Positions 1,440-59,163 of a DNA stretch of 64,000 nt are shown in pieces. The position numbers and the translations under genes are program-made. The DNA lies in the NCBI GenBank assembly GCA_006384855.1, contig VCJN01003484.1:1-64000 (forward strand). The letters are read 5' to 3'. This DNA comes from Tetraselmis striata. Its lineage: Eukaryota > Chlorophyta > Chlorodendrophyceae > Chlorodendrales > Chlorodendraceae. Numbering within the stretch: position 1 is the first letter of the stretch; every line of letters starts with the position of its first letter. The notes beneath the pieces are model-generated. The model saw only the letters and a list, made by a program, of their open reading frames with translations, ran no database searches and was not told the origin of the DNA.

Positions 1440-3294
1440 ACCTAGAGATGTTCACACATGCACACCTACGAGAGGTGTGATGCCGTCGCGCTAGCTAAAC
1501 TGCGGGCGCAAAGGCGGAAGGTGGAGTCCCCTCGTGGTGCGGGTGCGTCATGTAGCAGGCGGGTTGCCGCATGCTGTCGCTAGCGCCGTTGGACATCGGG
1601 GAGTCCAAGCGGTACGCGTACGAGTGAGTACAGGTACCTAACATTGAACGAAACAATAATCTTAACGGTACCAGTATCGGTGACGGAATAGCCCGGTGTA
1701 ATCAAATCTCTATATTACCAATATGACCACAAATGTCGACGTTTCCCTGAAATTAATGCCATGCTGGCATGCCTTGCCAAATGCAAGAAACGCCTTGAAT
1801 GTGGTACGGATTAGTAGCCGGTCTATCACCACTCGCGACACCTCTCCGGAGGCCGCTTGCCGCACCCCCCTCATTCAAGAAGCTGTCGACCAAACGGACC
1901 ACAGCTCCCCCCCCTCCCCCCGCACACGAGCGAATCCGCATCGCAAAAAGAATCGCCTCCCTCATAACGGGCGGCCCGCTCCCCTCCCTCACTCCTTCCC
2001 CCTCAGCCGCTCTCCCTAGCGATGATTAGCGGATGGCCGACGACAAACACGACTCCGGCGTCGACCTCGACGACCTGGTCCAGGGAGAAGACTATCTGGA
2101 CGCATACGTGGAAGGCCTCAGAACCCCCCTAATCACACAAACCCTCTAGCGCCTCGACGGCGCACCATTCGCAACCCTCCACTTGGCCTCGGGCCACACA
2201 ACGTACACCCCCCCAATCACACCCACCACTGCCACATCAGGCTTGAGATGGCACCTCATCCGGTGGGGAAGACCCCGGTACGGGGCGCAGGGCAAGGCGG
2301 GACGCTTCGGCTGCCTCAGTACGCATGCACTTCCTCTGCGGGACATACCCCTCTAACGGCAATTGACGGCAACATGGCGCCGCCCTAAGTAGATGCCTAT
2401 CCGAGCAACGGGTCGAAGTTACACGTAGCGAACCAAACACACAGAGGCCGCTTGGGGCTTTATAATGAAGTGGGCGCTGAAGGAGATGCCACAAAGTCAT
2501 AGATAGGAGACATGAGAGGCAGCCCAAGCAAGGCTGCGACGTAAGGAGGCGGGGATATGGACACGGAAGGGGATGGCCGGTAGCTTGAGATGTTATACAC
2601 ATATGTATCCCTAATATGGTTTGAGCTGGCAGGCCCTCACAGCGACACGGTCCGGGCAGCGGGGGAGAGGAGCGGACTAGCAGTGGTTAATAAATTTCAA
2701 TTTCGATTTAGCGGGTCTTCCCTCTCCCTCTTGTGCGGAGCTGTGCCGATTCATCCGAGAATTATTGGCAGTATGTAAAAATTACGTGTATTTTGCCGGT
2801 CGAAGACCGGCATCCGGGGCGAATTAGACGACCTGGCAGTGGACCGCGCGGGCGGCAACATCATGCTATTCATACGCAAGCAAGAGCAAGGGCGACCAAC
2901 GTGCCGGAATGGCCGCCAAACCGTTATTACAACTCCCGATCGAGTGTCATCCGGAGCTGGTGGATCTGTTGGAGAACCACATCTGCTCATGATTGGAATA
3001 TAACCGCGAATTCTTCCACACATAACGGCGTACCGGAGTGATATTGGGCGACCTCGCATTAATATTATATTCCCCGTTGCGTATGCTATGTAGTGCGTCG
3101 GCTCAGCCGGCAAGATTCTAGCAGGCTGAGCCGACGCGCACGTGGACATCTTGTACGCTGTGCCATTAGTGGTTATGTTTACATCATCCCGTGGTACTAA
3201 CCCTCGTACTCAATTATGCCGAAGATATCGCGTGACGGGTTACAAAAAGTATAACTGACACGCCAGCTCCGACGCGACCTCGAGTAGCGGCGAG
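1440..3294. other. Stretch without a recognisable gene
   Basis: I recognise no host gene here. A 38-codon reading frame from the ATG at 2033 (MADDKHDSGVDLDDLV) looks acidic and Gag-like, and may be the start of another retroelement Gag, but this is a guess. Two hairpins are present: a short one at about 2803-2820 (TGCCGGTC, 3-base loop, GACCGGCA) and a longer one at 3095-3137 listed separately. The remaining open frames are low-complexity or antisense shadows. Confidence 0.4.
3095..3137. repeat. Perfect 14-bp inverted repeat (hairpin)
   Basis: GCGTCGGCTCAGCC at 3095-3108 is exactly reverse-complementary to 3124-3137, with a 15-base loop. It lies about 150 bp upstream of the DIRS RNase H remains. 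It could be a remnant of a small inverted-repeat element or a recombination site; no function can be read from sequence alone. Confidence 0.8.
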
Positions 3295-4110
3295 TTGCGG
3301 TCCATGGGCACATCAACGGCCGCTCCATCTACAACTAACTCCGTCGCGACCATCTACATGCACGTCGACAGCTCCGACTACGGGTGGGGCGCCGTTCTTA
3401 ACGAGACCACGAGGCGCGCGGCTTCTGGTACGACGGCGACCGCGATTTGCACATCACCTACAAGGAGCTCAAGGTTGTCCGGTACGCCGTGCTCACCTTC
3501 CTCTCTTAGCTGCGAGATCGACAAGTGCTGCTCCACGAGGACAACATGGTGGTCCAAATCCTCGCCAACCTCACCTCCCACTCCCCGCGGTTCACCACCG
3601 AGCTATATAAGCTATGGTTCATCCTCAACACCAACGACATCACAATTCGTGCGCGCAACATCAACACCACGGCGAACATCTACGCTGACCGCCTCAGCCG
3701 CGAGATCGACTACGACGACTTGGCGTTCAACCTACGCCACTTATTTAACCACCTCGATAGTATCTTGGGGCGTCCATCGCCTAGCTACCACCGAGAGCGC
3801 ACGGCTCCCACGATACAACTCTCGATGGCGCAGTGACCCTTGCAACGAGGCTACCGACAACCTGCGTCTCCCCGACGGTGCGTGGCACAACTGGTGCAAC
3901 CTTCCCTGGGGCCTCATCGACGACCTCTTCATCAAACTCCACACCTCTGGCGCGGCGGCCACCGTCATCGTGCCCTATTGGCCCGACTAGAGCTGGCACC
4001 AACGCCTCTCGGAAATGGCGTCCGAAGTGGTTGTCTTCCCGCCCTCCCCGGACCTATTCGCGCCCGGCCGCCTAGGCATGCGCGGTGGCGTCGGTCATCC
4101 CAAGTGGCCC
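3295..4110 (+). mobile_element. DIRS-type element remains: RNase H and methylase-like tail
   Basis: The strand reads an RNase H pattern (VDSSDYGWGAVLNE near 3363; ITYKELKVV; LLHEDNMVV; later RARNINTTANIYADRLS). This is followed by a segment with NLPWGLIDDLFIKL and VIVPYWPD, then FPPSPDLFAPGRLG. RNase H followed by an N-P-P-[WFY]-type, methylase-derived tail is the usual order in DIRS/PAT-type tyrosine-recombinase retroelements. No RT or recombinase of this copy is seen. It is a fossil with a few breaks. It is followed within about 170 bp by repeat R, which also occurs at 41.6 kb just upstream of a DIRS RT. Confidence 0.75.
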
Positions 4111-6739: not shown

Positions 6740-7502
6740 TCACCGCGTGCTGGCTGCGGCAAAGACAAACTTTGGGAAGTCTAGCGAAACCGTGCCAGTG
6801 CCCGTGGGGTCGAAGGACGTGAAAATTCCTTTGGCGCTCTGCAGGAACAGAGTCATTGCGATGAACTCGGGCTCGCCGAGCTTGCCATTGCGGTCAGGGT
6901 CAAAGGCCTTCACGGTGGCATAGAACGCGTGCTGGTCCAGCTGGAACCCGGCCCGCGTCAAGCTTTGGTGCACCTCATTCAGATCCAGCTCCCCGGACCG
7001 GTCCGCGTCAAAATGCGCAAAGCTGGCACGCATGTTGCTCAGGAAGGTATGCAGCGCGCCAAACTCGTCCAAGGAGATGGAGCCGCTATTGTCGGCGTCG
7101 TGCAGCCTGCCAACGGCAGCAGCAGTAGCATTACTCTTCAGCCGGAAGCCTCCCATCCTCACTGCAGGTGCGCGCGCGCGCTTGTGCTTCGTAGGTGGAG
7201 TGAGGGGTGAGAGCGCAGGTCGGCCAGCGTCGACCGTACCGAATCATTTGTGCTACTGCCGCCAGCGAAAACACAAGGCCGCTCGGCGACAGCGCCTTCT
7301 GCAGCTCCGGCGCGGTGATCCTGCCGCTGCCGTCCGTGTCCACTGCGCTGAACCACTGCAGGGGAAGGCGTGCTCAGAGGGAGGGGTAGAGACGGATCGG
7401 CGGCGAGTTGCGCGCGAACTACGTGGGAGATGTAGGCGGTGTTCTGTACGAGCTGCATCTGGTACCCAGATGAACGTGGCGGGGGCGGTTCACCCTACTT
7501 AG

Positions 7503-26964: not shown

Positions 26965-29042
26965 TATATGTGTGTGTGTGTATATATATAGCACATATAT
27001 ATATATATATATATGTGTATATATACATATATGCTATATATATTAATAATATGGAACCAGTACCATAATACTCAAATTGAGCTTGCATGCAGCCCATAAG
27101 AACATTCCCTATAGTTCAGCTATGGATTTCTCTAGAGTTAGCCGCTGGCAGGCAGGGCGGGTTCTTACTCGCAATGGCCTTGCCACCGCGCCGGCAGACA
27201 TAGTAAAGAAGGTATGTGTTCCACCTACGGATTAGTTTCATTACTGTTTGTTGTGCCGTTGCGGCTGTACCTCAAGTTTCTCATCCTGGCTTCTGCCAAA
27301 CAGCATCGTCCGCGACCCATTTCCGAGACAAATTCGATTGACCGACAGCGTGAACGGCGTGGCAACGGGGTGTACTAGCCAAGAAGGTGCTACTCCGAGG
27401 TCGATCCGGAAGCCAACCACCATTCGGCGCACACTGCAAGCAGCTCATTGGCACTAGGGATATACCTGGCGCGCGGTGCGCTCACTGGCTAGTTGGTACC
27501 TAGCGGCCTGATCGCCCCCAACCATCCCCGGCCATCGACGAACCGCGAGCACGATGGACACGACATCCCAACACCGCGTGCACTACCCCGGGTCGGTTGC
27601 CCCGAGCGGCCGGGTGGAGATCTGCCGGCTGGGTGGCGTCCATCAGGCGGGGCGTGTCCTGAGCGCCACCCAATCGGCTCAATGGGCCATCGCCAGATTT
27701 TCGGAGGTGTTTGCTCAGCCCCTTGACAACAACTCAGGGAGCTTGGCGATGACTGTTTGCGTGCATTGGGTCGGAACTTCGAAAGGATGGCGGTCCATGG
27801 TTGGAAGGAGGCGGAAATGGTGGGGATGCGAGGAAATGTTTCTCACGATGGCATATGGGCGGATGCAGCACTGTTGAAATTTCGTAGGAGAAGGTGTTGC
27901 GTGGACAGCCAGACTCAATCGCCTTCGTGAAACTCGTCAGGGCGAGTTCTACGGTTGGTGTAGGCGATTTGGTACACACCGGCGAGTTTTAACCCTTCCG
28001 GGGCCAAGGCGTGGGTATCCTGTGTATTTTTACGATGCCGATATGATTCGCGGGGTCGAGGGGCTGGAATACCAAGTTCGCTGGCGTAAGCGAGTGATCT
28101 GTCGATCAGTGCCCGCCCGACTGATGTTCATTGGGTGATCCAGCGGGTGCGGGAGCTCGTGTTGCAAGCCGACAGCGGCGCCGCACCTGCATCTGCAGCG
28201 CCTTCACGCCCAGCTCCGAGTGGTCCCCAGAGGTGAGCCCGCTCCCCGCCGAGTCCGCATCGGTGGACTGCCTTCCCTCGCTCTTCACGCCCGACCCGGA
28301 GCATTGGTCCCCCAGCAGCAGGACGCCCGACGAAAACTTGTTCTGCGCACACACACGCACTCGCACTCGGTCAGCATGGGGAGCTTCATGAGAGTGACCT
28401 GAGCTGACAGTCTCCTTTGGTACTGTGTGTGGGGCCGCAACGATGCAACATGAATGCAGCATGTACGTTGCCACCGCGCGTGGGCACGCTCGCCACCACC
28501 GGGCAATTTCACCCTCAGGGCACATCCAGATCCCATCCACCCCCTTGGAAGCTGAAATGCTCCGAAACCACCTTCCTTTCCGGGCACACCACCTACGAGC
28601 TTGGAACATCTCGACGACCATTGCTGGACAGAATGCGCGTGAGTGAGAAATTGGGTGTATGGTGCCCAGCGGGGGGAAGGGGGGGGGGAGTGTATACCCT
28701 AGAATTTGGTAGGGTTTAGACAGTTGGTGTAATATTGCACACGTTCCGTTCAGTTTGAAACCTGAATAACCAGAAAACGGAGCTTGATGCCACAACTGGG
28801 GTTCGGGTTGTGTGTGTGTATGCGTGTGTCTGTGTGAGAGAGGGAGAGAGAGAGAGAGAGAGCTTTGACGGGGAAAACACGGGGGAGGGGGGTGTATACC
28901 CTAGAATTTGATAGGGTTTAGACAGTTGGTGTAATACTGCACACGTTCTGTTCAGTTTGAAAATTGAATAACCAAAACGGGGGTTGATGCCACAACTGGG
29001 GTTCGGGTTTTTATGTGTGTGTGCGTGTGTGTGTGTGTTTGT

Positions 29043-29085
<43 letters not shown>

Positions 29086-29132
29086 TGGGAGAGAGTGAGC
29101 TTTGACGGGGAAAACGGTGGAGGGAGGGGGGG

Positions 29133-29167
<35 letters not shown>

Positions 29168-31420
29168 AGGGGCACACCAGCTGCCCCGCCTGGTGCAGGT
29201 TGATCATCTGCGTGACGTCCTCCATGATCTCATCAAAGTCCGGGCGCTGCTCCTCGGCCTGCTCCCAGCACTTGCAGGCCAGCTGCACCACGCGCGTGGG
29301 CGTGCCGGGCGGGAAGGTGGGCCGCCGCTGCTGCACGATGACCGCCTGCGTGATGGCCATGCCGGTCATGCCGTCAAAGACCTTCCGCCCAGAGAAGATC
29401 TCGTACAGGAACATGCCGTACGCGTACACGTCCGTCTTGGGGGTCATGCGGCCCTGCGGAAGAAAAGGGCAGCAGCGCGTGTCAGGAGGCCATCAAGGGC
29501 TACCGTGGGATTAGGGGTTTTAGGGTTTTGGGAATTTAGATCGTTACCCATCAACCTCAAGCCCCTGAAACCTCAAAAACCCTAAATTCCAAAACCTATA
29601 GCCTGTTATAAAACCCTGGTCACCCACAGGGTTACTCCCAGCTATCACCTAAAGCCCTAAACACGCAGATCCGGCCAGCGACCGACGCCGACTTAGGGCT
29701 CTTTGCAGGTAACACGTGTCAAGGTTGTCCGTCACTTGTCACGGTTGACACGGACGCAACACAATCACGACGTTGCTCACCAGGTCATGTCCTAACAGCG
29801 GGGTAAGCCCCGGTGCGTCAGAGCCTGCTCTACTGACACCGGAACAGCTTTGTATGATGCAGTTTCTTCCTTTAAATATCGGAAGCCACAATCCCACCTA
29901 GGGGGGGAAATCAGCGCCCCCGGGGAGGGGGGGGGGGGGGGGGGGGGCGGGTTCCTCACCGTGAGCAGCACCTCAGGCGCCATGTGGGTCACGGTGCCGT
30001 GGGTGATCCCCGACACGTGCGTCTGGTCGGTGCCCATCAGGACCGACAGCCCAAAGTCCGCCACCTGGGCGGCGCAGCCCAGCATCCCACATCCGTCAGG
30101 CCAATGAGGGAGTCAGACCAGCGACCCGCATACTCCCCGGACACGATCGCGCAACATAGTCGCTCTAAACGATCCCCACCATGGCACTCCCTTCATGTTG
30201 AGCCAATCACGCAGGGATTGCAAAGCCGCCACATTCGTACGCTGCGGCCATGCGCGGCGATCGGATGAGATGTGCAATAACAAGGGGGGACGGCGCCGCT
30301 CAACAGAGGTTATGGACCCTTCACGAGGTTGCGCTGTGTTGCCCCAGAAGAGAATGGTGTTGCTCTTCTGAGGCAACACCATTCCGACCCAGTCCCTCCG
30401 CCACACCATACACAGTAGAAAGAAACTGCAGCGGGAAGTGGGTACGAGTCGAGTCGTTCACACGAGCTCCGCCGTGCCTCACGCCAGAAGTGCCCATAAA
30501 GCAATGACACGTGACGGGAAGCTGGAAGCTGGAAGCGCGACGCACGGCCACGTCCACCGCCGCCGCAGGAGTGTCCGGTGAATAGGCGACAAAGGGTCGA
30601 GAGGACGGCCGGATCCATGGAATCATTTGCTCAGCATGTCAGCATATCGGCACACGTCAACATCATCATACCTTTTTCATGTATCATATCCGCACTCGGC
30701 GTGAATCAGATCCAAACGGAGTTCCAAACCCCAAAAACTCAGACCCAAACCCTAAAACTCTGAATTCTGCGGCGACGAGGGGCACAGTAATGGCACAGCA
30801 CCCTAGGGAGGGGGGGGGGGGGGGGAGAGGGGGGCTTCGGTCGATCACGTGTTCCTCACTAGCGTCGCTGCCGTCATCGCAATCGGCCGCCGTACCTTGG
30901 CCAGCATGTTGGTACCGGTCTCGCGCTCCATGGCGGTGAGCAGCACGTTCTGGGCCTTCAGGTCGCCGTGGCAAATCTGTCGAGGGGTGGGCACCGTGTG
31001 TGTGTTGGGGGGGGGGGGGGGTGAGGAAGCGTGGGCGCAGTGTCCACCTCTGTCCCCCTCCACCCAAGAAGAGACACACAAACACAAAGACACAGCAGCG
31101 GAGAGAAATAGTTTGAGGTGTATGATGCGGACAAGATGAAAGAATAAGGGAATAAAAGCGCAATTGAAGGAACACCGGCACTGTATGTCAGCGCTAGCCT
31201 CAGACGCCTATGTTCATCAGATTGCTGCGGGCCCTTGTGGCCACCCGGTACGGGCGCAGCCGCCAGACACGAAGGAATGGATGCGCGCCTTGGGATTGCG
31301 CGGATTGGAGGGTCGCCAGACGCGCCAGACGTGCAGTCATGCGGAGCCCCTCCATCATTGGAACATCACCTAGGCAAGGACAATCACATACCCACATACA
31401 TCTACAATCATACCAGAAAT

Positions 31421-42399: not shown

Positions 42400-43470
42400 C
42401 GGTCGACGTGCCCCCCGAGCGGGGGTTAAGACCTACGCGCCAGGCACGCAGCCATGCGCCCCCTGGTCCACGTCCCAACCCGTGCACTTCCGAGTCTAGC
42501 TACATGCGTCACAGAATGCGACGCAACTGGCGGGCCTAGGCGGACATCGGCGCCGGATGTAAGGTCGTCGACATGATCCGCAACGGCGTGCGCATCCCGC
42601 TCAAGGACGGGCCGCCCGCCCCCTTTCACCAAGGCGTCTCGATGGAGGACCCTACCCCCGACCAACTACGCTTCATGGACGGCGAGCTGGCGTGCTTCCT
42701 GGCTAGCGGAGCGTGGGAGGAGGGCCACTGCTCGCCAAGGGTCTCTCGGCCCTTCCTCGTCCCCAAGCCGGGTGTCAACAAGTGGCGACTCAGCATCGAT
42801 CTACGACCCCTCAACCGGAATTGCGAGGAGCGGGACCTGAATTTCAAGACCCTCACCCGGCTGCGTCTATCATGTAGCTCGACCCGGCGACTACATGCTC
42901 TCCATGGGCCTACATGACGACTTCTACGCCATCGGCATTGCCCCCGAGGACCGCGAATACTTCACCATCGACTACCGAGGCAAGCTCTACCGGCTCGCGG
43001 GGCTCCCCATGGGTTGGAGCGTAAGCCCCTACTACTTGTGCTCCTTGACAGCCGCGTTCAACCACCACATGCGACGCCCTGACTTCACAGTAACCACCCA
43101 CGGTGTGCGTCGGTCCAAGGTCACCATGGGACGACGCCAGGCGCCGCGCAGCCATTTCCGCGGCTGCCGCATGCTCCCCGACATGGAAGACTTCATGTTC
43201 TTCGCGCCAAGCAAGTCGAGCGCAGGCCTACGCCGTGCGCGATCGCATCACCTCTCTACTAGGGAAGCTAGTCCTCAGCCGACAGCCCGACAAGGGCCAA
43301 TGGGACTGGAGCACCTCGGCATGGAGTTCGACTCGCAGAACGGTACGATTCGCCCCCCCCCCCCCCCCCCCCAACGGAAACTCGTCTCGAGTCGCTCGCT
43401 GCCACATCCCTAGGCCTCATCCGCCGGGCTAAGCGCGACAAGCGATGGTTGCCTGTGCGAAAGCTCGCGT
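42400..43470 (+). mobile_element. DIRS-type reverse transcriptase remains
   Basis: Reads PPAPFHQGVSM and FLVPKPGVNKWRLSIDLRPLN (about 42615-42820), then YAIGIAPEDREYFTIDYRG and GLPMGWSVSPYYLC (about 42930-43040), and further on WLPVRKLASLAGQFMFLAIM (about 43450-43510). These are the fingers and palm blocks of a DIRS-type RT. The LPMGWSVSP block corresponds to the LPFGLSSAP region of other RTs. A C run lies at about 43358-43372. It is a fossil with several breaks, probably continuous with the promoter-like repeat R just upstream. It ends where a foldback element begins. Confidence 0.75.
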
Positions 43471-45699: not shown

Positions 45700-46870
45700 C
45701 CAGTGAAAGAGGGCATCGCAGCCCCCACTAATCCTACTAGCCGGCTCAGCGGTGGATAAATACTGAGCAACACGTAGCTATTCCAGGCAGCTCCCTTCCC
45801 CCATATCACCTTGGTAGCTGTAGGCGGGAATAAAACTGCAGCTAGCCCTACGTTGGACTCATATGTCGCTACGGTGAATAACGTCACATCAATGCCCACT
45901 TCCGGCATGGTCGGACAAGGTGCGGAAATCAAACGTAGACGAAGAGTCTCGAAGCTTCCTGGTTGGCATGACTCCAATCTACAACGGCAGGTTTTGAATT
46001 ACGCAAGAAATAAGTCAACGGGATAGTCAAATCACTGAAATGATGGATAATAAATTTAGAGTAGAGATATTGCAAAATGTACAAAACTTCGTACTTCACT
46101 CTGAGTTTTTGAAACGGGCCAATCTTGAATTGCAGATGTTTTCGAGTTAGATACCTATATTTTGCAATCAAATGCATTATAACGAAAATAGTCCATAGAC
46201 GTCATCCTAAAGAAACAATTCTTTAGTTGCAAACGCGTAATGTTTAGGTAGTTTTGCTAAAACCATACGAATATGTTACATGTGATCATCATAAATATCT
46301 GAACATATCTTGCGTTTGCAACTACAGAAATTTGGGGATGACGTCTATGGAATATTTTGGTTATATTATATCTGATGGCAAACTACACGTATCCGAGACG
46401 AAAATATCTGCAGTTCAAGATTGGCCCGTGCCCAAAATTTAGAGTGAAGTACACAGTTTTGTACAATTGCAACTTATACTCTAAGTCAGTATATCCATCA
46501 TTTCAGTTATTTGAATACCTATTGACTGATTTGTTGCGTAAGTCAAAACCTGCCTTTGTATAGATTGGAGTCCTGCGTGTCGGAAAGCTTTCGATACTCT
46601 TCGTCAACGTTTGATTTCCGCACCTTGTCTGACCATACCGGAAGTGGGCATTGATGTGACGTTCACCGTAGCGACAAATGCGCCTAGCGTAGGTGTTAGG
46701 GTTGCGCCTAGCGACTACCCTAATACCACCACAAACTGCGATGTTTTATGTCCAAGTAATCATACTGCTATACTGATATTTCAGCATGCGTGTTGTTACT
46801 GGTACAGCCACAACCAGACGCCAGTAATATTCCCTGTAACATACAGTACGCGCTACAACTCCTAAATCAT
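45700..46870. mobile_element. Two Ty3/gypsy RT fragments in head-to-head inverted repeat
   Basis: The minus strand at about 45850-46190 and the plus strand at about 46310-46700 carry the same RT-to-RNase H boundary piece. Landmarks on the plus strand are FGYIISDGKLHVSETKI, QDWPVP and LLRKSKPAF, and a DWS, LRLRLISAPC and PEVGIDVT set occurs on both. The arms mirror each other base for base over roughly 380 bp (CCATAGACGTCATCC against GGATGACGTCTATGG near the centre), around a spacer of about 60 bp near 46245-46305. Both pieces are fossils. Confidence 0.8.
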
Positions 46871-47175
46871 TAGGATAGCGCTACTAGCTGCCTATCCGCG
46901 GTACCGACGAGTCGGACAGCTACATGATAGATATGTAATGCCACCGGCATATTGTATCATATTACATCCAGCAACCAACTCAATTCGCCAAAATACTACG
47001 AGTAGAGCCATGTATCATTAAGTACTGCCACGAGTACTTACACTAGTTTCGGCTTCCTGTTACGATCCATCTCCACCTGCCGACCCACCGCGACCTGCGC
47101 TCGCACGCACGACGATACATTCGCGATTTCGCTGGTCCTGCCGACCCTTGGTAACGATTCTGAACCCTTTAACCT
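46871..47175. other. 5' flank of gypsy element A
   Basis: No gene. It should contain the 5' LTR end or leader of element A, but I could not match it to any sequence at the 3' end and cannot mark LTR borders. Confidence 0.35.
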
Positions 47176-50100
47176 TTGTCCGAGTCGCGTATCACCATGT
47201 CATCGCAGCGAAGCGCCCGTCAAGCCGGCTATCCTCCCGGTGGTCCAACCGCCGAGCAATCTATGCGTCAAATTGTCGAGAAGAAGATGATGGAAGCCCG
47301 TGTTATGGCACCAACTCAGAACATCATTCACAAGCTCGCCGACGTTCATGATTTCCCAGCAGTCGAGGCCTTCCTGGAGAATGTCGACAAGGAGATTTCC
47401 GACCGCAACAAGCTTTGGGTTCCTGAGATGGAGGCATGGCTCGGTCGCCAGTTCAAGACTGATTCTATCGCGGCTCACACCCACCAACTTGTGCTCAACA
47501 GCCATGAGCTTCAGGGTCACATTGTCATGGGCTGCGAGGTCCTTACTCATTTCGCCAACTATCAAGGCTGGAAACAATCTTTCTTCAAGGCCGCTTTCCC
47601 CAACGGCATTCAAACAGCCGTCGGAGACTACGCGCGTGACATTTGCATCAAGCCGAGCGACCCCAAGATGGCTACTTGCTGTGTCGACTTGCAGCGCAAG
47701 CTACAAGCTGCATTTGCTTTGCTGCATGAACCTTTCGTTGTGCCTGAGTACTTGCAAGTGCAGCGTATTTTGCAGGCGATTCCCAAGCACGAGAGAGCCG
47801 AGGTGCAAAAGATGGCTAACCACGCCAACGAGGCTGTCTCGACTCATGAAGTACTTTTCAGACATCTCTCGGCTATCAACGAGGAGCACCGCCTCGCTGT
47901 CGAGATTGCCCAAAAGGAGGCAGGCCAACACCAAGAACCACAAGCGTCGCTACGAGGAATATTCAGGTCGTTGCCACATGCCGACCTCCACAAACCCGTG
48001 GTCACGCAACAACGGAGCATCAACCCGCTCTTCCCCAAGTCGTCATGCTGCTCACAACAGCTTCCCCAATCGTCAACCAAAAAAAAGAGTCGCTTCTCTG
48101 GTGAGTGCGCCAAATGCGGCAAAAAGGCCACTCAATTTATGAATGCCGCCATGCATCTGAACATGACAAAGAACAGTTCAAAGCAAAAGTGGCTGCTAAT
48201 AAGCTAGTCAAGCAAGTCGACAAGATCGACTTACATAAAAACAAATGATGGTGTTAGGCGGCATGCCAACCTGTGCCTCTCAATGTAATTGAGACAATTG
48301 ACACTTACATGTCGCCGAGTCCATGCAAACACGCATGCACTGCTAAACTGCCTGCTCAGCCCCTGCATGAGATCGAGGAAACAGATGTCGATATGGTTGA
48401 GCATTGCGCTCCCGCAGCACTGAACCCCTCCGACTCACAACCGGAGCAAGAAGCTCATGGGTGTTCCTGTGCTCATTCACACCTCGTTGCCGACATCGAG
48501 GACGAGACAGGGTGCAGAGAAAATGTCGACAAAATGTCAAAGACAAAAGATACATGCTAGACTGCATGCCAAACTGACTATCATGCAAAAGAGATCTCGA
48601 GTGCCCAGAATGCGTACCAAAAACAATAATCAAAAGAATGACACTGAAATTAACAAATATGCAAAACCAAATGCATGTCCAACTGACTCTATCGTGTTTG
48701 ACCAAGCAGAATTCAAGAGACTGAATTATGCCTATGGTCCATTCACTTTTGATGCATGTGCCTCAGCATATGATGCTGTCTGTTCAGATTATTGCAGTGC
48801 TGAAAAACCATTTCTGCAACATGATATCAAAGGTAAAACTGTGTTCATCAATCCAGTTTATGATGACACCGCCCTGCCTATCGTGCAGCATTTTGAGATG
48901 CAAAGATAAGAGTCACATTTTGACACAAGAGGTATTATCGTTATGCCCAGATGGTCCTCACAATTAGGACAACCCTGGAAGCCGCGGCTTTCAAAATATA
49001 AGAAAATTCACGGCTATCCGCCTGGAACATATCTGTTTCACACACCCAGTTCAGCGACTGATATTGAGCCTATGGGACCCAGTGAGTGGTATGTTGATGT
49101 CTACCTGGCTGACTATACTGTAGAGGAACGTTCAGCCCAGGCAATTAATGACGTCGTTACCACTGAAGAACTCAAAACCATGCTGGCTGAACAGCAAGGT
49201 AAGGAATATAAACCAAAAACCACAAAGTCCCATCAGTCACGCATGATGACAGAAAAATGCTTTGTTACCAGCAAGTCTGATCATGATTTATTGCTGTTAC
49301 ACCCCACATATGCTGAATTTCATATAACACCTTCAGTACTGGCTGACAGCGGTGCTACTTTGAACTTTGCCAGCACCAAGTATGTCAAAGAGAATAAAAT
49401 ACCAACTACACCACTTCAAAATAAAGGAAGAGTTATTCTTGCTGATGGTAGAATGGTTCTCGCTTCACCAAAAATCACCCTTGAATTAAATATAAACCAT
49501 TACACAATACCCATTGACTTCACAGTCACACCGTTATTGACTAATTTCAAGCTGGTTTTAGGGATGCAATTCATGAAACAACAAAATCCACATGTTGATT
49601 GGGAATCTGGTCTAATGACATTTCCCACAGGACTGAAAGTCCAATGCCAAACAGAGCCCCGCCAGGCTAATGTCAGAATAGTTCATGCTAATGCCATGGC
49701 CAGAGAGATTGCCAAGCATGACCCTGACACAGTTTATTTCTGCGCAATTGTTAAACAATACAATGCCACCAAAGAAAGCAATGAGCTAGATAATGATGAT
49801 GAGATAAATACAATTGACACTGACCAGTCTGCAGCTTATACCGCTCAGATCAGATACTTATTGCTAAAGCATAAACCAATATGCTCTCCACTGGACAACC
49901 TTCCACAATAACGCCCTGGTCTTGATCATGAGATCCCTTTTGTTCCTGATGCTCAAGTTCCTGCAGGAAAAATATACAGATTGTCACCTGCGGAATTAGA
50001 GGAACTAAGAACACAACTGAATTCTTTTCTTGAGAAACAGTTTATACAGGAATCCTTCTCTCCATATGCAGCTCCAATTCTCTTCGCCCGCAAGGCCAAT

Positions 50101-52123
50101 TAATGGCGGTCTGCGCGTGTGCATTGACTACCGTCAATTGAATAAATATACCAAAAAGGTTGAGTTCCATGTTCCACCCGCTGATGCATTACTTGGTATG
50201 CTATCTGTATGCATTACTTGGTATCTGCTATCTGGCGCTACTGTCTATTCAGCTCTTGATCTCGCCTTATGTTATCACCAACTTCGGATTAATCCACCTG
50301 ATGTTCCTAAGACAGCGTTCAGAACTGTCTATGGTAAATTCGAGTGGTTAGTTATGCCATTTGGCCGCACCAGTGCTCCCTCCTCTTTTCAATGCTTGAT
50401 GACATCTATACTCCAGCCACACAAGCATACCTTTATACTTGTATACCTGGATGGTGTATTGATTTTAAGCAAAACTCTTGAGGAACATTTGCAATATTTG
50501 GACACAGCTCTTACTATGCTCGAGTCTAATGACATTAGACTACGACTACAGAAATGCTCGTTTGCCAAGAATGAACTCGAATACCTCGGACATGTGGTGT
50601 CTCAGGCTGGCCTCAGACCTTCGCCTAAAATTATGGCTGTTCAGGATTGGCCCAGGCCTAAAAGCGTTTAGAATGTCCAACAATATCTTGGGTTCTGCAA
50701 TTTTTACCGACGCTATGTGCGCAATTATTATGCTATTGCAGCACCTCTGTATGCCCTCACCAGAAAAGATAATATATTTGATTGGACAGTTGAATGCCAA
50801 GCTGCATTTGTGAAACTGAAGCAAGCCTTGTGCCAGTCCCCAGTGCTAGCAAGCCCTGTCACTGGCAAAGATGCTGAGTTTGTAGTGGCTATTGACGCCA
50901 GTAAATATGCCTTATAGGTGCAGTTCTGCTCGTTCCAGGCTGATGCTGATGGCCACTTACACCCATGCAGCTATTATGCAAAGACATTGCAGGCTGCACA
51001 CACGAATTATCCCATCTATGACCAAGAGCTCTTGGGTGTGGTATGTGCTCTGAAAGAATGGCGCTGCTATTTGGAAGGCAGTCGCCGTGTTGCAGTTATA
51101 ACTGACCATGCCACATGAGACATTTGCCCACACAGGAAGGACTATGCAGACGCCATGTTCTATTGCTACATGATATTTCACCATACATGGCAGTCAACCC
51201 ACAGCGCATGTGTTGAAGATACGAGATCGCAAAGCGCTGACAATGAGGCAGGCCTATGCCCTCTCCTGCCGCCTTGACCTGCACTATGCATTGACTGAAT
51301 ATGAAAACCAGTTGGTCGAAACTGATGACCTCGAAGATATGCATGACTATTTGTCAGCAATTTTCTGCCTTGCAGATTGATAGCAAGCTGATCAACAAGA
51401 TCAAAGCTGCCTACATCACTGATGTTGCCTACAGTCATGGACGTACCCCTAACGGTGTGCGCCAAGATGAGACTGATGGTCTCTACTACATGGCAGATAA
51501 GGTCTGTGTACCCAATGATTCTGATCTTAGAAAACTCGTCATTGAGGAGTATCATGTTGGTAATGGACATCCCAACCATACCCGCACTCTTGCCAACATA
51601 CTGCGTATGTTTTGGTGGCCACGCTTGAATACCACAATTTAACATTACTGCAAACACTGTGATACTTGCGCCAGAATCAAAGCGGCTACCACCAAGCCTT
51701 GTGGTTATTTATTTCTCTTGCCGAAGGCAACCAAGCCTTGGGAGATAATCTCTATGGATTTTATACCCAACTTCCCTGAGGTGGATGGCTATGATGCTAT
51801 AATTGCTACGTTTGTTGATACATTCCCCAAACAATCACATTTTGTGCCATGCAATATTAAGATCGAAGCGACACAGTTGGCCAGATTATATTTGGACGAT
51901 ATTTACAGACACCATGGTCTCAGCAGATGTATCATCTCCGACAGATCCCAGGTTCACTTCAGCGTTCTGGAAATCAGTGTTTTCAGCTCTGCAAACAAAG
52001 CTAAATATTTCCGGCACTTACCACCCGCGGACGGACGGTCAGACTGAACGCACCCACAGAACTATTGGGCAAATATTACGTGCGTTTGTTCTCAAGCAAC
52101 ATGACTCTTGGTGAAGTCATTTG

Positions 52124-52474
52124 TGTTATACTTCATTTCCCTTCTAGCTCTATTGTCCCGCTTTAGTAGTACGACTACGCATCCCTGCGGAGTCCCTGTA
52201 TATATTAGCAGTGCATGTATATAATAGTAGAAGGTCGAAGACTGTTCTGGAATTTTCTAGATTTCTCTGACCTTGGCCTTACGTGACTAACTCAGCACGG
52301 GTAGGACTACAACTTCGGCGGGTATAAATACCGCCTCGGGTCTACCAGAGGTAGACAAAAACAAACACAGACTAACCAGGAACTCTGTAACAAGAATACG
52401 GATTGGCTAGACTTTCTAAATCCTTCCGTTGCATCCTAAAGGGCCTGAACTATTGGCTAAAGCATAGCCTGACA
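52124..52474 (+). repeat. 5' LTR of element B
   Basis: 351 bp, starting TGTTATACTTCATTTCCC and ending AGCATAGCCTGACA. Contains GTATAAATACC near 52320, a likely core promoter, which is also present with changes in the 3' LTR. Confidence 0.93.
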
Positions 52475-54299
52475 TTTGGTTTCGGAGCTGAGACAACGGC
52501 AAGCGACGTAAAGATGGCTACAGAAAGAGATGCCACCTGCTAACAGAGGGAGCTCTTCGGCAGCGGCCACTGCCGGCGGAGCGCAGCCGATTCCGCTTGA
52601 AGGAGGTTAAGAGGGCACGCAACCGACCCTCGAGAACGTGATGAGCATGCTTCAACGACTAGCTGACCGAGTCGAGACAATGTCGACGGAGCAAGCGAAG
52701 ATGCCCGAACTAGCGCGAGCTACGACGGCGGCAACTGCAGATTCGACTCTTGGACGAGTACTTACGACAAGGCTTCAGTCACTTCGATGACCGAGTAAAC
52801 CGGAGCCGAGTCGTGGAGCAGCAGATGCGTGACCAACTTCGTTCTACTCGGACCAGTGACATGCTTGGACTGAAGCCGAGCGATGTGAAGCCAAGGAAGA
52901 TTGAAAAGCTTTCGACTACGAATATCGACGAACTAGTTTCGTCATGCGCAGGGTTACCTGAAGTATCACAACGTAAATCTGGAGGAACCTCGTAGCGTGT
53001 ATTGGGCATCTGGCTACTTTCACGGACCTGTATCCAAGTGGTGGTATGCGCATGTGGCGAGTACGCACGACGAGATTGGCGGCGGTTTTACCGGTATTAC
53101 AGACATGCAGGCGGCATTGAATACCGAATTTTGTGGACGTACACTACCGGCGAAACAAGCTCGGTTCAACCTGGATCGCGCGACACGGACAACTACGATA
53201 CAGAAGTACGCGAATTATTTCCGCGAACAACTAATGGAGCTACCGCATCGTCGTCACGAGGAGGACAACGTACATGTCTTCCAGCGCGGACTGAAACCAC
53301 ATATTCGTAAGGAAGTTGCCATGAAGAACCCGAATATCCTAGCAGCGGATGTACCGGCGGCTCTGGCTGTCGAGGACGCAGAGCGAGAGACAAATGTACA
53401 CCGCGAAATTCGTCACGACGTGCGCCTGAACATAATGGACGACGATGGCGACGACGACGAGCAGTACTACAGCAGCGCTGAGGCTGAGACTACAGAATTT
53501 GAAGAAGATATGCTGATGGCGCGGCACTTGACCGAGGAGGAGGTTGAGAGAATCAAGAAACAGGGACGCTTGTTGTATCTGCAGGAAGAAGGGTCATATT
53601 GCACCCGCGTGCGCAAGCAAGAAGAAGATTTCCAAGATAGAGTTCCGAAAGACAAGGCAGGGAAACTAAGACGTGAGTCGGCCGTGCGCGGCGCGCGACA
53701 GGGTGAAGGACTGTCCCCTACCACGGCTCGCGAGACGATACCTGAAGTACAACCCTCTCATCCTTGAACGACACTAAGGCATGATTTCCTCGCCAAGGAT
53801 TTCATTGACTGGATGGTACATCGCGAGTTATTTCACGAATACACGAAGAAGTACGGAAACCGCGACTTAGACGGAGCTTGCGACAACGACGGCCGGAATT
53901 CTCAAGTTTCTGGAAGTTTCTGTTGTCCGGCGCGCCCGTTTCAGGAACATGATCTCGGAGAATATTGGCGTATATGGCTAAATGCCCCGTACAACCGAAT
54001 TGAAGATTTTTGGGGCCACTACCCTCGGCATAAGTTATTGCATCCGCATCTACGAGCAATTATTGTGGTCCCAAAATGGTCACATTAACCGTGGTTTCGA
54101 ACTACTGAGGAATTTTCGCCTGGTGGACGAGTTACCGGCGGAGACTTCTGTGTTTACGTGGCCTACAAACGACGGAATATAAGGTGCGAGACAAGATGTC
54201 GGCCCGACTCGATGGGCGACACAGATCTACGTCGACGATGGCGCCGGCGTACGATTACTACCGCAGCACCTGAGAACGCCACCGAAGCCCGAGTGGACG

Positions 54300-54660
54300 C
54301 ACTCGAATGTGCTAGTGACCGATGGAAGGCGAGTGCTCTTGAGTGTAGAAGACAACGGACTGACCTGGTTTCCAAATGGCAAGCGCGACGCTACTGAAGT
54401 GACACCGGAGACAGCAGCAGCACGAAGAATATCCGAGAAAACTGGGTATCGAGTACAAGAGAGCAATCTACGGTACCTCGGCACTCAGCAAGTGGAAGAC
54501 AACCGATGCCATGTATACATGTATCGCGTTCGCCATTATACTGTACCGTCAAAGAGTGCTTATGATCGTGCATTATGGACAACATGGGAAAAATTACTGG
54601 AAGCACGGCGTACGGGTTATCTAGAGACGGACACAGCACGCTACCCGCTACGGTACGAGA
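54300..54660 (+). mobile_element. Nudix-hydrolase-like domain within element B
   Basis: Reads VLVTDGRRVLLSVEDNGLTW, then FPNGKRDATEVTPETAAARR with ISEKTGYRV. This is an imperfect match to the Nudix box, which has the pattern G-5x-E-7x-R-E-hydrophobic-x-E-E-x-G. Strand and helix elements expected after the box follow (LRYLGTQQVEDNRCHVYMYR; ALWTTWEKLLEA). Nudix enzymes hydrolyse nucleoside diphosphates linked to another moiety. In a retroelement this could act on nucleotides, but activity is only speculation. It sits between the Dam-like module and the protease. Fossil copy. Confidence 0.72.
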
Positions 54661-57600
54661 GCTTCGGAGAACATATTGATGAGTATGTTAACCATTACGT
54701 CCGACTACCTAGCGAAGACTCCAAAGAGCGTTTATTGAACGTATCTTCAGCGAAGGGTACCCGACTGCTGACCGTATCTGGCGAGCTACGAGGACAACAC
54801 TGTAAAATACTGGTGGACTCTGGTGCAACCGAGAATTTTGTGAGTACCGATCACTTTGTGAGTACCGATAGCGAGTGGGTGCAAAGCATCAGCGCCCTGC
54901 AGTATCCGGCGGTAAATATCGCATTAAACTGGAAGACGTCAGCACGAGTACGAGTACCGAGCAGCCGAGGAGCGAAATACTTACCATACGAGTCTTCGAC
55001 TACAAATTGGACGCTACAGCTACGAACTTGGAGAAATTCGACATTATCCTCGGACAACCGTGGCTTAAATCGGTTAATCCTGACATCGACTGGACTGCTA
55101 AAACCATAAAACACCGGAAGACTGGACAGCTTATCGCTACCGCAAAACAGTACACTACGACGGTTTACCACTTGGACGCGGCTAAGATGGCGAAGGAACT
55201 TCGAAAGAGTTGCGGTGAAGAACTGTTTGATGTTGCAGTACGCGAGGTGCTCGATGCAGTGGCTTAGCTGCGTACGGACCAATCGACCGAGCGAGTGGAC
55301 TGAGGAGCTGAAGGAGTCCCTTACTGAGCTTGCGGACATCATCGCGGAGCATGCTGACCTACCACCGGAGCGCGAGTTCGACTTTGAGATCAACTGGAGA
55401 GCAACGAACCCCCAAAAGAGCGGACGTACCGTATGTCACCAGCGGAGTCGCAGGAGGTACGGTCGCAATTGGAGGATTATTGTCTAAAGGCTGGATACGC
55501 CCGTCGAAATCAAGCTACGGCGCCCCCATTTTATTCGTTCGTAAAAGGACGGTACTCTGCGTATGTGTGTCGACTACCGCAAACTCAACGACCTTACGAA
55601 GAAAGACCGGACCCCGCTTCCTCGTATCAACGAATTAATGGACTCACTACACGGAGCAGCTATTTTTAGTACTCTAAACCTGTACAAGGGCTGTCATCAA
55701 GTGCGAATTAAACCGGAGGACATCCACAAAACAACATTCCGGACGCACTATGGACTCTACGAGTACTGCGTGCTACCTTGCTTCCGGCCCGACAAACGCT
55801 CATGTTGGATTCCAAGCGATGATGAGCTGTGTTTTGAAACCTTACCTTGGAAAGTTATGCGTAGTATACCTGGACGGCGTGCTGATCTATAACAAGACAA
55901 TTGATGAGCATCTCGAGCATATTCATATTGGTGCTACGGGAGCTGCAACGACGTCACCCGCGTATCAAGTTGTCGAGGTGTTCGTTCGGCCGTGCTAGCG
56001 TCGATTTCTACGCCCTATCGTCGAAGGAAGACAGATCAAGATGGATCCCCGGAAGGTTGAAGCTGTTCAAAAGTGGCCCGTGCCAAAAACCGTAAAGGAC
56101 AAACGAGGTTTTTTCTGCCTTGGTGGCTATTACCGCAAGTTCATCCATAACTTTGCGGCAATTGCGGCGCCACTCAACGACCTGACGAAGAACCAACCGG
56201 AGTTTGTCCGGAATCCTTTTAGTGCATTTCGTGCATTGAAGGACGCAATGGTACGAGCACCCGTATTGAATATACCGGAAACATCTCCGGACGCCCGTTA
56301 CACACTGTATACGGACGCACCTGGATTTGCAGTGGGACCTGTGCTACTGCAAGATCAAGGCTCGGGACTACGGCGTGTTGCGTATCATGCGCGCAAGATG
56401 AACAAGCACGAAGTTCACCACCCGGTACATGAGCAAGCAATGTTGGCGGGTCGTGATGCACTTATCAAGTTCCGGTGCAATCTCGATGGAGCGGCGGGCT
56501 TTACTGTCATCACCGATCACGGCACGCTACGAGACTTCTTTCGCCAACGCAATTTGTCGACTCGTCAAGTGCGATGGCCGCAAGTCTTTGCGCCTTATCA
56601 ACGACATATGGACATCGTCTACAGGCGAAGAGATGCGAACCATGCGGACGCTCTCTCTCGATGACCCGACCTAAAGGATGCGCTACAAAAGCTGGAGCTG
56701 CCAAACGATTGGTCAGAAGACGAGGCTGACTGAGTCATTATTTGCCATGGAGTCGCGACTATACGCGGACAACAAATTCTACGGAGAAATCAAGACCGCA
56801 TACGACTCCTTACCACCCTGGCTAGTACGAAACAGCGACGGCCTGTTGTACGCCTACGGCTCGCGGCTTTACGTAACAAATATGGCGGACCTGCGACAAC
56901 GAGCACTGTACGAGCCACATGATGCGCCTGCTTCTGGACACCTGGGAGAACGACGACTGCTGGCGCGTACTGTGGAACTGTACTGGTGGCCCCGTATGAA
57001 ACAGACGGTCACTCACTACGTACGATGCTGCCCTACATGTCAACGTACTAAGGCGGCCCGACACAAGCCATACGGTTTCCTTCAGCCTCATGACGTACCA
57101 TCACGGCCATTTGAGGTAATATCCCTGGATTTAATCACGGACCTTCCAGAGTGCCATGGGTATGACACAGTAGTCATTTTTGTATGTCTACTGTCCAAGC
57201 GAGTAGTTATTGAGCCAACTACAAAGACAATTACTGCTGAAGGCTTGGCGGACATTATGCACCGTTCAGTTTTTCGTCATTTCGGCCTACCGGCAAAGCT
57301 CATTTCTGACCGAGACCCGAGATTTATGTCTGACTTCTGGCAAACTTTGTTCAAGACCATGGGTACCAAGCTAAACATCTCTACAACTTTTCACCTGGAA
57401 ACTGATGGCCAGACGAAGCGGACTAATCCGACATGGGAGCAAGTGCTACGCTGCTACGTGCACCCCTTGCACGACGACTGGGTTAATCACCTCACCAACG
57501 CGGAGTTTGCGATCGACGCTGCTCAGTCAACTTCGACTACTATGTCCCCTTTCAAGGAATTGATGGGATTCGAGCCGACTACACATGTTACTGCTCAACT

Positions 57601-58333
57601 CGCAGCGGAGTTTACTCGTGCTCTTCCTGACCACGTACGTACTGGCAATACATGCAGGAGCTTCATCGCTCCCCACATGATTGTGTACTGGAGGCTCAAG
57701 CTCGAATGCAGACTGCAACTAATCGTAAGCGACTACCCGTACCATTCAAGCCCGTCGACATAGTTAAGCTGAAGGACTCTCATATGAAGTTCATTCAGCA
57801 GCCATGTGCTAAGCTACGTGACCGCTTCGTGGGACCCTTTGTAATCGCGGAGCAAATTTCACAAGTTGCTTTCCGATTGCAACTACCTGCGGGCGTACAA
57901 GTCCACGATGTGGTACATGCTAGTATGGTGGAGAAATGGTACGCCGACCCCAATCGACCAGCAAAGCCAGAACGAGTACCGATCGTCCACAATGCGAACC
58001 GATTCCACGTTAAAGATGCGCTCGGTGTCGCCTTCAACAACAACGGCACTGGACTACTATTTTGAGTATGATGGGCGTTGTCATACAACGTGCCAAGCGA
58101 AGACACCTGAGAGGCCCTACGCGGAGTCAAACACTTGGACACTTTCCGACCGTTTCTGCAGTAACTGAAATACTGACATACCGACAGTTTACTGCAAGCC
58201 CGGACTTCATTCGGTTCCGTAACCGCTACCCAGCCCGAGTACCTTCCGCCTGAGCGTCAAAACCAAGATCAACGTTTTCCCTAGTTCTTTGAAGCATGCA
58301 CAGCGAGCACGCTTGTGCTTAAGGGGGAGAGAG

Positions 58334-58687
58334 TGCTATACTTCATTTCCCTTTTAGCCCTAATGTTCCGCTGTAGTAGTACGACTACGCATCCCTGCGG
58401 AGTCCCTGTATATATTAGAAGTGCGGGTATATAATAGTAGAAGGCCGAAGACTGTTCTGGAATTATCTTGTGTTCTCTGACCTTGGCCTTGCGTGACTAA
58501 CACAACACGGGTAGGACTACAACTTCGGCGGGTATACATACCACCTCGGACAGCCTACCGGAGTTAGCGAGAAACAGACACAGATTAACGAAAAACTTTA
58601 TAACCAGAATACAGATTGGCCAATCTTTCTAAATCCTTCCGCTGCATCCTAAAGGGCCTGAACTATCGGCTAAAGCATAGCCTAACA
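58334..58687 (+). repeat. 3' LTR of element B
   Basis: 354 bp, starting TGCTATACTTCATTTCCC and ending AGCATAGCCTAACA, directly after a purine tract at 58321-58333. Matches the 5' LTR along its whole length with scattered differences. Confidence 0.93.
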
Positions 58688-59163
58688 ATTTGGCTCTTGC
58701 TGAATTTTCTTACAACAAGTCAGTCCATTCGGCAACACATTGTGCCCATTTTGAGGCAATTCATGGCATGTACCACTGACACCACCTGATATGATTGCTA
58801 CTGCCAACCAAGATTCACACAACACAGTTGCAAATATTCAGGATATTCACATACTGATTTTTGAGCAATTGAAGCTTGCCGATGAATATCAAAAGGTCTA
58901 TGGCCGACCTCAAAACCAGCTCTGTTGAGTTCGCAGAAGGAGACAAAGTCTGGATCTCGACGGAGCACATGCTTACACGCAACCAGTCGACACGCAAGTT
59001 CCGACAGCGCTACATTGGCCCGTACCCGGTCACGGCCAAGATCTCCAGCAAGGCGCATCGTCCGCGCCTGCCGCCGACGTTCGACTGCCACAACGTGTTT
59101 CACATCTGTCGACTTTGCCGGTGCGTCAACCCAGACGCACAGCCTGATGCAGCCCAGTCCGCG

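Follow-up and report, generated by a model that had tools for sequence, protein, structure and literature searches.

The window analysed here (64,000 nucleotides; positions 1 to 64,000, forward strand, of contig VCJN01003484.1, GenBank assembly GCA_006384855.1) comes from the chlorophyte alga Tetraselmis striata and contains two Ty3/gypsy retrotransposons, A and B, both of them broken copies. Between gag and the protease, each carries a segment that is a genuine PF05869 Dam-type methyltransferase domain of Gag-Pol. In element B this domain is followed by a NUDIX domain (54309-54596), a feature overlooked in an initial annotation made from the sequence alone. That annotation had described two elements, and both are present, but they are more than neighbours: B sits inside the integrase of A, with the 5-bp sequence ATTTG duplicated at 52119-52123 and 58688-58692. 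The features are given below, where LTR stands for long terminal repeat, RT for reverse transcriptase and L049 for an open copy of family A in the same genome; values after Pfam accessions are E-values.

46694..52123, + strand: 5' part of element A (Ty3/gypsy), with LTR, gag, Dam, protease, RT, RNase H and integrase start; 92.2% identity with L049 1448-6844, domain order taken from the open L049 pol
46694..47042, + strand: 5' LTR of element A; 84.8% identity with the L049 3' LTR
47173..48204, + strand: gag frame of element A, lost inside the zinc-knuckle region
48246..48248, + strand: TGA separating the gag and pol frames of element A, a putative read-through position (L049 TGA at 2999-3001)
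48697..49131, + strand: Dam-type methyltransferase domain of element A; single frame broken by TAA at 48907-48909, motif IV NPVY at 48850-48861; the part ahead of the stop matches PF05869 at 4.4e-7
49324..49602, + strand: aspartic protease of element A; PF08284 9.7e-7, residues 139-231 of the 48910-49911 frame
52124..58687, + strand: element B (Ty3/gypsy), nested in A, with ends TGTTA...TAACA
52124..52474 and 58334..58687, + strand: LTR stretches of element B, 87.9% identical to each other
52937..53764, + strand: gag of element B (capsid region); PF03732 1.1e-5, PF19259 7.1e-5
53816..about 54239, + strand: Dam-type methyltransferase domain of element B; motif IV NAPY at 53981-53992, TAA at 54086-54088 with the C-terminal part after it in another frame; PF05869 4.1e-4
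54309..54596, + strand: NUDIX domain of element B, with a degenerate catalytic box; PF00293 5.3e-8 (33.4 bits, cut-off 21.1)
54774..54851, + strand: beginning of the element B aspartic protease; weak match of a broken piece, PF13650 0.17
58688..59148, + strand: continuation of element A (integrase C-terminal region); 90.7% identity with L049 6840-7300

The Dam-like module that the initial annotation had proposed for both elements was recovered when the separate pieces were compared with Pfam. Relative to the curated PF05869 cut-off of 28.1 bits, the element A piece before the stop scored above it (30.2 bits), as did locus L079 of a further gypsy lineage, A2 (33.0 bits), and the first piece of element B gave a significant match under it (20.5 bits). 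Significant matches under the cut-off were also obtained for A2 and two B-like database proteins, P0002 and P0003. In profile-profile comparisons against 12 phage Dams the probabilities were 99.1% for the gypsy A group and 98.3% for the gypsy B group, and the maxima among column-shuffled controls (100 per group) were 6.7% and 2.7%, respectively. The Dam of a B-lineage relative yielded a confident predicted methyltransferase fold, with a predicted local distance difference test score (pLDDT) of 88.8; AlphaFold2 on the whole of P0002 with three sequences gave no usable model (pLDDT 36.5). A sequence search of the PDB returned no match for the A Dam and only weak NUDIX matches for element B (best 0.042). 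The gypsy Dams have the phage core layout in common, and most of them, together with the DIRS-like Dam DIRS-C and a Ty1/copia Dam, end in a segment of the form (L/V)F-T-x-P...GPT-x-W, from which A2, A3 (another gypsy lineage) and P0003 partly deviate.

The T. striata genome (224 Mb in 2903 contigs) was scanned, with at least 152 matches to the A Dam and at least 150 to the B Dam, and holds open-frame copies of both families. Frames of 1500 amino acids or more were open in 56 of the 150 B matches listed and in 12 among the A matches listed. The family A copy L049 has a pair of 353-bp LTRs, 99.7% identical, and a gag ending in a sub-threshold zinc knuckle match (1.3e-4), a single TGA and a pol in the frame of gag; downstream of it lies a GC-rich 30-bp tandem repeat (L049:9287-9496). 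The family B copy L050 has 413-bp LTRs (99.3%) and a pol in the -1 frame that overlaps gag. Pfam found the Ty3/gypsy order protease-RT-RNase H-integrase in both open pol frames, preceded by Dam in A and by Dam and NUDIX in B, and followed by a chromodomain (1.6e-7 in A; weak, 0.022, in B), which bears out the position between Gag and protease originally assigned to the module. In L050 the protease matched PF08284 (4.7e-8) and PF13650 (1.5e-7), and the N-terminal pol piece matched PF05869 (2.9e-6).

The Dam domain is under purifying selection. Ratios of nonsynonymous to synonymous divergence (dN/dS) were 0.13-0.36 for Dam in seven A copies, the window's included, that differ from L049 by more than one base, and 0.07-0.29 for the protease in five A copies (L003 and L006 had no protease match), both ranges including post-insertion decay. 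L002 and L051, which are one locus nearly identical to L049, lie outside the seven-copy set. Between window B and L050 the Dam value was 0.071/0.309, and between A2 and A3 dN was smaller in Dam (0.29) than in the protease (0.52).

A PF05869 search of the same genome gave 122 matches among 150 scored candidates and, besides A and B, two more Dam-bearing gypsy lineages were found, A2 (L079; open in L083) and A3 (L082). With L079 as query, 150 matches were listed, the weakest of which were B copies. The protease in L083, within a frame of 1529 amino acids, has DSA (IDSAAQREF) where DSG is usual. DIRS-like elements of this genome also carry Dam: RT is followed by RNase H and then Dam in L077 and L078, L074 has RNase H and Dam, and L053 has RT and Dam. 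A tyrosine recombinase was not confirmed in them, as two of four frames downstream gave sub-threshold SAM-like matches (0.016 and 0.079) and the other two none. Weak traces of RT and RNase H that may be DIRS-like occur in the window at 42841-43410 and 3259-3987 (RVT_1 0.065 and RT_RNaseH_2 0.057, both far under cut-off). A stand-alone Dam frame of 193 amino acids (VNPPF), present on several contigs (L060, L062, L064) and placed on the phage side in the trees, is possibly a viral or DNA transposon gene. Host-like coding pieces of the window include a protein kinase domain at 28719-29492 (- strand, 9e-15) and EF-hands at 6743-7243 (- strand, 7.7e-17).

Region searches of protein databases retrieved P0001 (A-like, 49% identity), P0002 (B-like, 57%) and P0003 (B-like, 43%), and a profile search with five pol proteins found 23 proteins. 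A gypsy-Dam hidden Markov model (HMM) run over 25 proteins matched four, namely its members P0001, P0002 and P0003 and the non-member P0025 (1.7e-14), a Ty1/copia polyprotein (RVT_2 1.5e-47). In P0025 the Dam-like domain (HMM match 733-861) lies between a protease-side Pol_BBD match (555-635) and the integrase (941-1041); because PF05869 by itself misses this protein, its assignment as Dam rests on the HMM match, a visible GNPPY and a C-terminal IFTCP...GTPW. No copia element was identified among the 150 own-genome matches listed to the copia Dam, some short ones of which carry no assignment. Scans of viral contigs with the P0003, A3, DIRS-C and Pantoea phage Dams gave no relative, and those with two phage Dams did find relatives.

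A Dam tree was built from 77 rows (7 gypsy, 5 DIRS-like, 1 copia, 63 phage and 1 stand-alone). Of its phage rows, 12 were retrieved by tblastn using A or DIRS as query and the other 51 by the scans with two phage Dams, kept by a diversity filter from 66 usable IMG/VR translations. The seven gypsy Dams form one group (98/96), and gypsy, DIRS-like and copia Dams together form a retroelement clade (100/99.7) apart from the 63 phage Dams. Smaller trees agree, one of them placing copia beside gypsy (96/97). The phage-type label of the initial annotation is correct for the family, but the nearest sampled relatives are other retroelement Dams. In the RT tree, drawn without A2, A, A3 and P0001 fall in one clade (99/98) and B, P0002 and P0003 in another (100/99), in line with the two distinct gypsy lineages first proposed. 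A single clade of Dam-bearing gypsies was neither shown nor rejected in that tree (approximately unbiased test, p 0.554), so that vertical descent and module exchange are both possible. The further claim that the module was not a single capture is unsupported as worded, a common origin of the gypsy Dams being favoured by the Dam tree. A role of DIRS as donor is suggestive only, the DIRS-like rows having 37/0 support as a group.

In lineage B the NUDIX domain lies between Dam and the protease, at residues 230-332 in P0003. L050 and P0003 also exceed the PF00293 cut-off (25.5 and 50.4 bits), and P0002 has no match to this family. The NUDIX catalytic box has the consensus REUxEExGU, which RETFEEAGV of P0003 fits and from which RRLLEQTGY of B and RALLDGTGY of P0002 deviate. 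The dN/dS of the domain between window B and L050 was 0.119/0.342.

Motif IV of Dam enzymes has the consensus (N/D/S)PP(Y/F). It is canonical in A2 and A3 (NPPF) and in the copia protein P0025 (NPPY), and in three of the five DIRS-like tree rows (NPPF; the other two have NPPS and NAPF). A number of observations weigh against the explanation favoured below. Motif IV reads NPVY in six of eight A matches, of which two represent the same locus, and NAPY in 37 of 39 B matches when duplicates are counted, and it is non-canonical in P0001 (CPPF), P0002 (NAPY) and P0003 (HAPY). In the PF05869 comparison the P0001 core gave just 0.026, the A3 and P0025 cores had no match, and Dam within the whole open pol frames stayed under the cut-off (A 1.6e-4, B 4.6e-5); NCBIfam equivalog cut-offs were likewise unreached. 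The alignment used for the structure model included 51 phage Dams, so the resemblance to phage Dams is partly built in, and the best solved structural match is to an enzyme whose substrate is RNA caps and not DNA. The Dam trees were also flagged for long branches. Both A and B retain the first residue of motif IV, N, and a single B copy reads NPPY. The motif is altered in both families, whose Dams may or may not be catalytically active; B, which accounts for more of the long open frames seen here than any other family, has kept the domain alongside a drifted motif.

The view that the segments are plain spacer between Gag and protease, similar to Dam only by coincidence, could appeal to B, which on its own lies under the Pfam cut-off; the Pfam matches, the profile comparison with its shuffled controls, the structure and the selection evidence contradict this account, and we reject it. 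Separate acquisition of Dam by A and B from phages or bacteria would suit their distinct RT clades, whose sisterhood is not shown, and is made highly improbable by the single gypsy group within the retroelement clade, set against a sample of phage Dams that leaves free bacterial Dams outside.

Computation gives homology, the fold of the lineage B relative, position, retention under selection and a single clade, and the simplest use of the domain would be methylation of the element's complementary DNA (cDNA). Its coding region lies past the point of gag/pol recoding, which is an in-frame TGA in A and a change to the -1 frame in B; Dam would therefore be made only within Gag-Pol and would enter the virus-like particle at Gag-Pol stoichiometry, alongside protease, RT and integrase. 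There it could methylate adenines of the new cDNA before integration, as a mark against host nucleases or silencing. With moderate confidence, we propose that the gypsy Gag-Pol domain, a member of a single retroelement-specific Dam clade that also takes in the DIRS-like Dams and a Ty1/copia Dam, acts on the element's cDNA in the particle, and that in A and B, with NPVY and NAPY, the domain is retained with catalysis perhaps weakened or replaced by binding of S-adenosylmethionine or nucleic acid. A catalytically dead Dam in A and B, kept for sensing S-adenosylmethionine, binding nucleic acid or building the particle, would explain why abundant families carry NPVY and NAPY under selection that is nonetheless purifying, next to a B NUDIX box that has lost catalytic residues as well. 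The canonical motifs kept in A2, A3 and copia, the B copy with NPPY and the conserved first N speak against it, and we consider it unlikely, if a serious contender. A live alternative, though less likely still, is that the same domain deposits N6-methyladenosine on the genomic RNA of the element or on its cap, with consequences for packaging, translation or sensing: the methyltransferase fold is common to DNA and RNA enzymes, which leaves the substrate unsettled by the structural match, but sequence families group the domain with phage DNA N6-adenine methyltransferases. The module supplies several natural variants (NPPF, NPPY, NPVY, NAPY, CPPF, HAPY) as material to test the need for methylation, and it bears on where adenine methylation of eukaryotic genomes originates.

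Dam in retrotransposons is already known from DIRS1-like Pol, where the accessible text of two papers describes a PF05869 MT (Dam) domain of unknown function (PMC3266345, PMC3783388). The DIRS-like Dams of T. striata join the gypsy Dams in one clade; in DIRS1-like elements, however, Dam follows RNase H and a tyrosine recombinase is used, whereas the gypsy elements described here, which have LTRs and a DDE integrase, carry it ahead of the protease. The same module under selection at a different place in LTR elements argues for an aid to retrotransposition itself and not to one integration mechanism. In the accessible parts of the literature searched, with Repbase and subscription papers outside its scope, no paper clearly described Dam in a gypsy or copia element, or a NUDIX precedent. 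As far as the available text of PMC5890265 goes, KnitGypsy-Dnmt3 of Klebsormidium nitens has a DNA methyltransferase domain within gypsy Pol, but of the cytosine Dnmt3 family, structurally unrelated to Dam, and cDNA methylation has been proposed there for the cytosine methyltransferases of DIRS. Other modules reported in gypsy elements, again from partial sources, are NADAR in Pol (PMC12477816), found in Ectocarpus elements and distinct from Dam and NUDIX, and an m6A demethylase in orchids (PMC9289625). Phage DNA N6-adenine methyltransferases (TIGR01712, phrog_111) resemble the gypsy Dams in core layout, D-x-x-A start and NPPY-type motif; unlike them, they are free-standing, form a separate clade and have a WxTP segment before the core, none being seen before the gypsy core. 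The dUTPase of betaretroviruses is a nucleotide-sanitising pyrophosphatase upstream of the protease, reached by a -1 frameshift; the B NUDIX occupies the same polyprotein slot, with a different fold and a degenerate box. It is tentatively conceivable that one Dam lineage moved between DIRS, gypsy and copia elements, through three Pol positions, and was fused to NUDIX in one gypsy lineage, as a private DNA-modification module of retroelements whose particle would methylate its own cDNA and clean its nucleotide supply. If so, this module would be a eukaryotic counterpart of both phage self-modification and the retroviral dUTPase.
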